Origin: a virus
DNA: 38,611 nucleotides
Direction: 5' to 3' (one strand)
Virus record (IMG/VR): IMGVR_UViG_3300027902_000340
Location: 1-38,611 of that record
Shown: positions 29,536 to 35,851 of the stretch, piece by piece
Layout of the letters: each line of letters starts with the position of its first letter
How positions within the stretch are numbered: position 1 is the first letter of the stretch
The notes under the pieces: model-generated
What the model saw: only the letters and a program-made list of their open reading frames with translations
Told to the model about the DNA's origin: nothing
Databases searched by the model: none
Position numbers and translations under genes: made by a program

Positions 29536-29763
29536 ATGAGACTCGCTCAACTCGGCAATGAATATTTCCGCCTGGTGAAGATGGATAATTGGATCACTAA
29601 AAATAGTGCTTCGAAAGCACTTGGAAAGGGAGGTCGTGGAAAACTTGAAAGGGCAATGAAGGTGGGTATTGTCAGGTCGTATAAGCGCAATCCTGATAAA
29701 CGAACTGGCAGGGTAATGGTGAATTTCGATGATTTGATGAAGATAAAAGATAAGGCAATTTAG
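29536..29763 (+). CDS. Small basic DNA-binding-like protein
   Basis: A 75-residue basic protein (MDNWITKNSASKALGKGG at 16-33, then RGKLERAMKVGIVRSYKRN) whose helices suit a helix-turn-helix. The second half is a two-strand wing (GRVMVNFDDLMK). It ends the operon before the 225-base intergenic region with the duplicated regulatory element, so it could act there, but this is conjecture. Confidence 0.5.
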   Translation: MRLAQLGNEYFRLVKMDNWITKNSASKALGKGGRGKLERAMKVGIVRSYKRNPDKRTGRVMVNFDDLMKIKDKAI

Positions 29764-29781
29764 GGATTGTTAATAAATATA

Positions 29782-29825
29782 ATGACAAAAAACAGTAATA
29801 TATTGACAATATTCAGTAAATTTGC
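29782..29825 (+). promoter_or_regulatory. Duplicated TGACA/TTGACA regulatory element, copy 1
   Basis: Two TGACA boxes 21 bp apart (29783 and 29804), then 8 bases and TAAATTTGC (29817-29825). The last part matches a Bacteroidota -7 box; the TGACA pair, two helical turns apart, looks like a regulator site. The same layout is at 35860-35902 before the terminase genes, which is why I call it an element and not a chance match. Confidence 0.6.
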
Positions 29826-29829
29826 TTTC

Positions 29830-29966
29830 GTAAAAACGGCGCTCCATGAAATATAGAATTAATTTTTTGAATTATACTGCCAGCTCTGGCAGCAACATCC
29901 ACGAAAGGTTTCCGGGTAGCGCCGTTCCTCAGTGGATTTGTTGTTTTGAGCTGGCTTAATTTTTTG
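29830..29966 (+). ncRNA. Structured leader RNA ending in terminator-like hairpin
   Basis: Three strong pairings can be drawn. A: AACGGCGCT (29835-29843) with AGCGCCGTT (29918-29926). B: GCCAGCTC (29879-29886) with GAGCTGGC (29948-29955), then TTAATTTTTT. C: CAACATCCAC (29893-29902) with GTGGAT and GTTG (29932-29943, two-base bulge). The 3' arm of A lies in the loop of C, making a pseudoknot. A rival hairpin CTGCCAG/CTGGCAG (29877-29892) would break B. It starts just after the regulatory element and ends before the ParB-methyltransferase gene. It could be an attenuator or a free small RNA. Confidence 0.6.
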
Positions 29967-29988: not shown

Positions 29989-31317
29989 ATGACAATTAAA
30001 ACAAACGAAATTATTTACAGAGAGGATTTATATCCAAGAATAAGAAAGAATCCTGCCAAAGTACAGGAATATAGTGAAAACTTAATCTTATTGCCTCCTA
30101 TTGAAATAAACCAGAAAAATGAACTTATAGATGGATGGCATAGATGGACGGCATATAAAGAAAAAAAACAAGATAATATTCCTGTTATAATTACCGAAAC
30201 CGCAGATGATAATGAACTTCTGGAACTTGCCATTGAAAGAAATTCTAAATATGGATTTCAATTAGATCGGAAGGATAAACAATCGATGGCAATTAAAATT
30301 TATGCCAATACTAAAATTGAAGAAAGATCACAAAAGAAAAAGAGACTTGCAGAAATACTTTCTATTACTTACGAAACGATCAATACATGGACAAAGGATA
30401 TTGATAAAGCACAAGAAACAGAAAGGAATAGATTAATTCGTGATCTTTATTTGTCTTGTTATACTCAGGAACAAATAGCGGAAAAAGTAGGATTGAAACA
30501 AAATACGATATCAGATATTATATCGAAAATTGAGAATTTTCAATTACCGATACAATCCTTTGAGACGGAACAAGAAAAAGAAAAATCATTTGAAGAAGAA
30601 AAAACAAAAGCTGAATTTAAAAATTCTGAATTTACACAACCTCTTTATAATGTCTGGAGATTTTCTAAACTTAATAATGAAGTTACTCATTTCGGAAATA
30701 GTGAACAAACAATAGTAGAAAATCTACTCTATCTATTTACAAAACCATTTGATATTATAGTTGATCCATTTGCAGGTGGCGGTTCGACTATTGATGTTTG
30801 CCGTAACCGATTTAGACGTTATTGGGTAGGTGATTTAACACCTATTGAGGCCCGCAAACACGAAATTCATGAGTTCGATATTTTAAAAGATATACCGGAA
30901 ATATTCAAGGGTGCCTGGCAGGATGTTTCATTAATCTATCTCGACCCTCCTTATTGGAGACAGGCGATAAATAAATATGGTGATAATGTTAACAATCTCG
31001 CAAATCTAAAAACAAGCGATGACTTTGCAGATGCAATGACAAATATCATAAAATCATTCGTTAAACGAATTGAATCTTCTAAAAATAGAGGAGGATATGT
31101 CGCTATGTTACTCCAGCCAACTCAATGGAATGCACCTGATAAACAATATTCAGATCATGTCTTTGATATTTATAAAAAAGTTGGATTACCTGTATTTATG
31201 AGAGTTCAATGTCCTTATAGTTCAGAACAATATAATCCGCAACAAGTTGACTGGGCAAAAGAAAATAAACAATTATTGGTCATTTCAAGAGAATTAGTTA
31301 TATGGAAAATCAAATAA
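29989..31317 (+). CDS. ParB-like/HTH/DNA adenine-or-cytosine-N4 methyltransferase fusion
   Basis: A 442-residue protein in three parts. Residues 1-95 are a ParB/Srx-like domain with LIDGWHRWTA (46-55, the DGxHR box). Residues 100-180 hold helix-turn-helix-like segments (EQIAEKVGLKQNTISDIISK, 161-180). Residues 215-442 are an amino-methyltransferase with DPFAGGGST (259-267, SAM motif) and DPPYW (319-323, catalytic). The order of motif I before DPPY fits the beta-type-like N6A/N4C group by eye. It probably methylates phage DNA, perhaps to evade host restriction. The ParB domain may add site choice or nucleotide-dependent sliding, inferred from the family. It overlaps the next gene by 16 bases. 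Confidence 0.8.
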   Translation: MTIKTNEIIYREDLYPRIRKNPAKVQEYSENLILLPPIEINQKNELIDGWHRWTAYKEKKQDNIPVIITETADDNELLELAIERNSKYGFQLDRKDKQSMAIKIYANTKIEERSQKKKRLAEILSITYETINTWTKDIDKAQETERNRLIRDLYLSCYTQEQIAEKVGLKQNTISDIISKIENFQLPIQSFETEQEKEKSFEEEKTKAEFKNSEFTQPLYNVWRFSKLNNEVTHFGNSEQTIVENLLYLFTKPFDIIVDPFAGGGSTIDVCRNRFRRYWVGDLTPIEARKHEIHEFDILKDIPEIFKGAWQDVSLIYLDPPYWRQAINKYGDNVNNLANLKTSDDFADAMTNIIKSFVKRIESSKNRGGYVAMLLQPTQWNAPDKQYSDHVFDIYKKVGLPVFMRVQCPYSSEQYNPQQVDWAKENKQLLVISRELVIWKIK

Positions 31318-35363: not shown

Positions 35364-35367
35364 ACAG

Positions 35368-35460
35368 TGATCCCCGGCAACGTTCTTTGCGTCATGCTCC
35401 TGGTTTTTATAACGGGTAATTTAAATTCTAAGTGAGCCTAAAACCGGGGATCATTTTTAA
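35368..35460 (+). terminator. Long-loop hairpin with T tract
   Basis: TGATCCCCGG (35368-35377) and CCGGGGATCA (35444-35453) form a perfect 10-bp stem, then TTTTTAA. The loop is 66 nt and contains CAACGTT and AACGGG, without an obvious inner stem. It starts four bases after the stop at 35363. The stem plus T run fits an intrinsic terminator; the large loop may be a small RNA or a regulated site. Confidence 0.6.
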
Positions 35461-35464
35461 ATGT

Positions 35465-35472
35465 TAAATTTG
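35465..35472 (+). promoter_or_regulatory. -7 box TAAATTTG before 35477 gene
   Basis: A perfect TAnnTTTG match, 12 bases before ATG 35477, just after a terminator hairpin. No clear -33 TTTG is present since the terminator arm covers that place. Same spacing as before the two homing endonucleases. Confidence 0.5.
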
Positions 35473-35476
35473 TATT

Positions 35477-35851
35477 ATGAAATATTTTAAGGTGAAGAAA
35501 TTAAAAATCGGAAATATTATTCGATGGGATTTGAACGATTATATGGATGAGTTTCAGCCAGAACAAGGTTATATAGATGGGCCCTTAGAATTATGGCAAT
35601 TAGGGCGTCCGGAAAGAATATCAGGTATCCCTTTATCTGATTCTCAAACAATTTCGAAATTACTCAATTATAGAGAATTGCATATAAAACAAAATCAAAT
35701 ATATGAAGATAATTCTAATAAGTATAGTGTTTTATTACAAGTCGGATCAAAACAATTTCAATTTAAAACTATTGAACTTATTGATTACTTTCATCAGTTA
35801 CAAAATATTTATTTGGAGATTACAGGAGAAGAGTTAATAAATAAGTGTTAA
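35477..35851 (+). CDS. Hypothetical conserved-type phage protein
   Basis: A 124-residue protein. Its N-terminus (KKLKIGNIIRWDLND), middle (LGRPERISGIPLSDSQT) and end (FHQLQNIYLEITGEEL) form a pattern I recall from short Bacteroidota phage proteins of unknown function, in which the last part reads HxLQNLYFxLTGxEL. It stands alone between a terminator and the late regulatory element, so it probably has its own transcript. Confidence 0.55.
   Translation: MKYFKVKKLKIGNIIRWDLNDYMDEFQPEQGYIDGPLELWQLGRPERISGIPLSDSQTISKLLNYRELHIKQNQIYEDNSNKYSVLLQVGSKQFQFKTIELIDYFHQLQNIYLEITGEELINKC

Follow-up and report, generated by a model that had tools for sequence, protein, structure and literature searches.

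The window analysed here, a stretch of 38,611 nucleotides, is a 38.6-kb virus record from IMG/VR, and it encodes a terminase, a portal, a head protease, and a YqaJ recombinase, along with NinG, DnaA-C, and DnaD-like proteins. Its nearest relatives are environmental phages, one Bacteroidales MAG contig has the RNA described below as well as a related gene for YqaJ recombinase, and its terminase shows about 36% identity to the terminases of cultured Bacteroides and Parabacteroides phages. Judged from these environmental relatives, the MAG contig, and the shared terminase, we assign the window to a Bacteroidetes phage. The leader RNA sits in a 225-bp gap between a 75-aa open reading frame (ORF; 29536–29763) and a ParB-like methyltransferase gene (29989–31317), and the features of this region are as follows.

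29817–29824, plus strand: Bacteroidetes -7 element TAAATTTG (consensus TAnnTTTG), with a predicted transcription start at about 29829
29835–29843, plus strand: 5' arm of stem A, AACGGCGCT, directly 5' of the leader start codon; pairs with 29918–29926 and covaries
29846–29959, plus strand: leader ORF of 37 codons, MKYRINFLNYTASSGSNIHERFPGSAVPQWICCFELA, with its stop codon within the terminator tail
29877–29892, plus strand: local (rival) hairpin CTGCCA(GCTC)TGGCAG, mutually exclusive with the terminator stem
29879–29902, plus strand: 5' arm of the long terminator-like hairpin (stems B and C), 22 bp in the minimum free energy structure, with covariation
29918–29926, plus strand: 3' arm of stem A, AGCGCCGTT, within the apical loop (29903–29931) of the long hairpin
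29932–29955, plus strand: 3' arm of the long hairpin, from the minimum free energy fold
29956–29966, plus strand: T-rich tail TTAATTTTTTG after the hairpin, intrinsic-terminator-like
29989–31317, plus strand: first gene 3' of the leader, a ParB-like/DNA methyltransferase protein (Pfam N6_N4_Mtase, 3e-10; PHROG methyltransferase and ParB families)

The first-pass annotation had drawn three stems (A, B, and C), a rival hairpin, and a T-run, all of which we find in place. It had also treated stem C as a separate element nested in stem B; here, the pairings hold, though stem B (29879–29886 with 29948–29955) and stem C (29888–29895 and 29897–29902 with 29932–29945) are one continuous helix, so that a single 22-bp hairpin (29879–29955) presents the stem A 3' arm in its 29-nt apical loop. 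Directly 3' of stem B follows TTAATTTTTT. Stem A itself comprises nine Watson-Crick pairs worth about -15.0 kcal/mol as a duplex. The full stretch folds with an energy of -40.6 kcal/mol (z -2.58), and the long hairpin alone with -40.3 kcal/mol (z -5.35), a value matched by none of 200 shuffles. Moreover, a descriptor requiring an arm A with its partner inside the loop of a terminator-like hairpin ranked this site first in the window, and over 2.0 Mb of phage DNA it gave 14 matches with a score of at least 60 (a few of them one locus present twice) against none in shuffled sequence of equal length. The random-sequence control that the first-pass annotation had asked for thus does not fold equally well.

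In total, we identified 17 copies of the RNA on 13 contigs, these being environmental Bacteroidetes phages and the one Bacteroidales MAG contig. Relatives anchored on the terminase yielded two syntenic copies (L090 and L098), and further copies came from descriptor scans, protein anchors, a hairpin-only DNA pattern, and a covariance model from which stem A had been omitted. As to the protein anchors, a helicase-loader-like protein gained one new contig, the ParB-methyltransferase protein returned no relatives, and a 184-aa methyltransferase-like protein was too widespread to serve as an anchor for the RNA. Three copies occur in the L098 phage and two each in L090 and L226. The pattern AGGTT..TTCCTGATGTG matched mostly by chance, the true matches being two already known copies alone. 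When run against about 790 other Bacteroidota genomes, the covariance model found only the seed genome, a result that argues weakly for absence given that just eight candidates were scored per genome. In 395 genomes searched by pattern, the seed genome was recovered along with a single match attributable to chance. Phage and plasmid records searched by BLAST with the RNA gave only short chance matches, and the RNA is absent from the five cultured Bacteroidetes phages examined.

Two of the copies (L098 290–430 and L226 734–870) make up a subtype with an additional inner hairpin (GGCGAATACT..CGCC), a common 3' end (CATAGGGTTTTT..AGTTTTTCCC), and leader peptides that align. The third copy in the L098 phage (L271 1506–1640; G007 33573) is followed on its 3' side by imperfect repeats of about 25 nt (AAGTGAATCA...AAGATAACCA) and then by a hairpin and T-run, with no gene.

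Covariation was computed on the 12 copies alignable by the model, in which 82% of the cells pair and 25 of the 31 pairs are changed on both sides. The covariation score of 0.471 compares with 0.204 for shuffled alignments and 0.10–0.17 with the partner slid, and not one of 500 shuffles matched it; the relatives thus carry the double compensatory changes by which the first-pass annotation had proposed to judge the stems. For stem A, the arms of each copy fit each other better than in every one of 100,000 permutations that exchanged arms among the copies. This stem evolves fastest of the whole RNA, with its pairing kept: L098a and L253 differ at 6 of 18 sites in stem A and at 8 of 111 in the rest (Fisher 0.005), and L250/L253, which share about 93% identity with L098a outside A, have three of the nine A pairs altered on both sides. 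Across the copies, helix A is 7–21 bp long. Since some copies were retrieved by a descriptor that requires A, their stem A is no independent evidence; however, stem A is present in all four copies retrieved without it, namely L233 and L271 (found by the covariance model lacking A) and L250 and L253 (found by the hairpin-only pattern, and identical in A sequence), with 7, 9, 9, and 9 pairs, respectively. The rival hairpin excludes the terminator stem, as had been claimed, and lies at the same place in at least 13 of the 17 copies with differing sequences, its own covariation being modest to weak. From this comparison of sequences, the RNA structure is well supported, and the earlier view of a pseudoknotted leader RNA finds backing in compensatory change among the 17 copies, a promoter box at the 5' edge, the exclusive local hairpin, and the T-run.

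The promoter box and the leader ORF had both gone unmentioned in the first-pass annotation. The TAnnTTTG box, found 2–16 nt 5' of stem A in 16 of the 17 copies, is the Bacteroidetes -7 element, whose last G lies at -5 (PMC6847099; also PMC4747536), and its position therefore puts the predicted transcription start at the 5' edge of stem A. With +1 predicted at about 29829, the RNA would be about 138 nt long instead of the approximately 130 nt first proposed, and the window's leader ATG lies about 17 nt from this predicted 5' end. An ORF of at least 33 codons runs from an ATG in or beside stem A through both hairpin arms in 16 of 17 copies, the exception being L235, with an ORF of only seven codons from its ATG. 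Among 15 non-redundant copies, the ORF frame is open for at least 33 codons in 14, as compared with three and two for the other frames (14/15 versus 2/15 for frame +2, Fisher 2e-5). The open leader ORFs span 33–57 codons, and several encode hydrophobic C-termini, but their peptides are poorly conserved and related only among close copies. With the peptide so variable, and with the ORF frame shifted relative to the hairpin in L233 and L271, selection seems to keep translatability and not a peptide; a C-terminal frame shift also separates L098a from L250/L253. A conserved functional peptide was rejected as the main explanation because the hairpin-relative frame differs between copies, and a coding-only explanation was set aside on account of the stem covariation.

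In 12 of 14 assessable copies, the next gene starts 105–154 nt after the start of stem A, and the genes found there are mostly for replication, methyltransferase, and nuclease functions. These include replication proteins in L090a (DUF6291), L098a, and L226b, methyltransferases in the window and L231, HNH or GIY-YIG nucleases in L090b, L091, and L095, and an endonuclease-like protein in L243, with small unknowns for the remainder. No gene follows immediately in L098b, L098c, and L226a. A T-run of at least five T is present in the window, L090a, L098a, L235, L250, and L253 and is weaker in L231, L226b, and L091, so termination may not be universal. In L235 (2762–2890), the 5' arm of a 21-bp helix A contains GTGTAGTTA, with its complement in the loop arm, and the same sequence is repeated directly 5' of the downstream ATG; on account of this repeat, the loop arm could cover the downstream start codon as well.

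Translation initiation in Bacteroidetes uses no Shine-Dalgarno sequences, and structure close to the start codon lowers it (PMC6847099). Reading the locus from its sequence, we favour, at a probability of about 0.5, a leader RNA of about 138 nt that acts in cis and in which transcription read-through would be coupled to translation of the short leader ORF. Here, the leader ATG would be free when first transcribed and a ribosome would load there, and, by trailing the polymerase, it would hold the long hairpin and stem A open so that transcription reaches the downstream gene. Should no ribosome load, the local hairpin would yield to the 22-bp hairpin, RNA polymerase would stop at the T-run, stem A would close over the leader start codon, and the downstream gene would stay low. 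The hairpin loop would then act as a built-in lock that keeps translation off on finished transcripts. Among the hallmarks of an attenuator, a short leader ORF predicted to be translated is found in 16 of the 17 copies, and the mutually exclusive local and terminator hairpins with a T-run are present as well, the T-run being strong in about six copies; control codons that would sense an amino acid or inducer were not found, as the peptides have no codon run in common. Because stem A is compatible with the terminator and does not exclude it, the RNA is not a classical antiterminator. The weak points of this attenuator reading are the variable T-run, the compatibility of stem A with the terminator, and the copies that have no downstream gene. 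In all, we take the RNA to be, most probably, a new switch linking translation with expression of the phage's DNA-handling genes.

As another possibility, though an unlikely one, the phage could be expressing the RNA as a stand-alone sRNA of about 138 nt, with a promoter and a terminator of its own and the neighbouring gene being incidental. Stem A, as an internal pseudoknot, would then shield the 5' end or form a surface to which a protein or another RNA binds. The promoter box, the terminator-like end, and the compact pseudoknot would suit such an sRNA, as would the location of L098b, L098c, and L226a away from any following gene start and the similarly laid-out, ORF-less RNAs with sigma-70-like promoters in other phages. 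However, an ORF kept open through the RNA is unexpected in a non-coding sRNA, most copies lie directly 5' of a gene, and several T-runs are weak. It is the leader ORF that makes a translation-coupled attenuator likelier than a pure sRNA.

More doubtful is a switch acting in trans in the manner of P4 CI RNA or Gifsy-1 IsrK, in which the loop arm of the terminated short RNA would pair with the read-through transcript at its 5' arm for autoregulation or superinfection immunity. The loop arm is perfectly complementary to the leader start-codon sequence, and stem A diverges faster than the rest, with the three copies in one phage all differing, much like specificity determinants; moreover, in IsrK a single terminator is already known to give rise to both a short and a long isoform (PMC4825925). 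Yet cis pairing should outcompete trans pairing, and the window holds no second perfect target for the loop arm. As a quite improbable extension, stem A might be a specificity code by which Bacteroidetes phages confer superinfection immunity through RNA, the copies in a single genome being orthogonal to one another. A resident phage's terminated leader would then recognise, via its hairpin loop, the leader start-codon region of an incoming relative and thereby shut down its replication or nuclease operon.

We regard it as similarly improbable that the RNA is a small mRNA for a hydrophobic peptide, with translation blocked by a 5' fold-back as in hok-type type I toxins. While the open ORFs of 33–57 codons, the hydrophobic C-termini of several, and a 5' end that folds back beside the start codon would agree with this, neither the peptide nor its hairpin-relative frame is conserved (L233 and L271; L098a versus L250/L253), and no antisense antitoxin gene was identified. 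Lastly, a DNA-level element (an operator, a recombination site, or a cruciform site) whose inverted repeats merely resemble RNA structure is very hard to credit, since, perfect as these repeats are and prone as DNA sites may also be to covary, the helices contain G-U pairs, the promoter, ORF, and T-run are strand-specific and without exception co-oriented with the neighbouring gene, and the spacing and loop order suit a folded RNA.

Neither the window nor ten related loci matched any Rfam 15 family at the gathering threshold, with permissive thresholds also tried, and no description of the RNA was found in the open-access literature. For both reasons, we consider this a structurally new phage leader RNA family with probable attenuator-like action. 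Among the candidates rejected, the T-box leader (RF00230), best of the weak scorers, reached 18.9 bits (E 0.047) against a gathering score of 93 bits, and its conserved UGGNACC is absent, with no TGGNACC in 29773–29966. A hammerhead, for which CUGAUG occurs in some copies, was also set aside, as the motif is unconserved in the window and has no GAAA partner.

The nearest described system is IsrK of Gifsy-1 (isrK-orf45-anrP), in which an intrinsic terminator gives a short RNA and read-through gives an mRNA controlled by an upstream ORF (PMC4825925). Alike are the phage origin, the choice between terminator and read-through, the small upstream ORF, and the mutually exclusive folds, though in IsrK the ORF lies 3' of the terminator and activation by the short RNA is in trans (PMC4825925). 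In the window RNA, by contrast, the ORF begins at the 5' end and extends across the terminator, and the apical loop of the hairpin is paired to the 5' end. Attenuators of the trp/his type have a short leader ORF, exclusive hairpins, and an intrinsic-terminator-like end before the structural gene, all in common with the window RNA, which differs from them in having no control-codon run, an unconserved peptide, an ORF that spans the terminator, and an extra pseudoknot between the 5' end and the loop over the leader start codon. The P4 CI and P1 C4 RNAs head early or replication operons, have short complementary segments, and link termination with leader translation; the window RNA resembles them as a phage operon-head RNA with such segments, but these pair within one compact RNA, and there is no sequence family match. 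In hok-type toxin mRNAs, translation of a small ORF can be silenced when the 5' end folds back onto a distal segment. A comparable fold-back is seen here, except that the 5' end pairs with an apical loop that lies within the ORF and the peptide is unconserved.

Aside from this family, a second group of RNAs of about 100 nt (L004 5660, L018 3437, L024/L025 8225, L053 7763, L070 3353, and L015 507) occurs in phages having the methyltransferase-like gene. These have a sigma-70-like promoter, no leader ORF, and no Rfam match; in each, the loop of a 5' hairpin complements part of the apical loop of a strong terminator hairpin. They resemble a kissing-loop sRNA family, either separate or convergent. 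Other inverted repeats were noticed near terminase genes. In the window (35367–35500), a 10-bp inverted repeat (TGATCCCCGG..CCGGGGATCA) with a TTTTT end lies just 5' of the terminase small subunit gene, and in Parabacteroides phage PM708P3 (L275 16034–16150), a 16-bp perfect inverted repeat (GATGCCCTATCGTTGC) with a hairpin between its arms is located in the gap 5' of the terminase genes.

To our knowledge, RNA-based control has been little described in Bacteroidetes phages. What we present is a covariation-supported family, absent from Rfam and found in up to three copies per phage, that unites, ahead of genes for replication, methyltransferase, and nuclease functions, a pseudoknot between 5' end and loop with a terminator that a leader ORF overlaps. 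Should the proposed mechanism be true, the RNA would sense host translation without the help of a protein, and such a switch could provide a compact means of expression control for Bacteroides.
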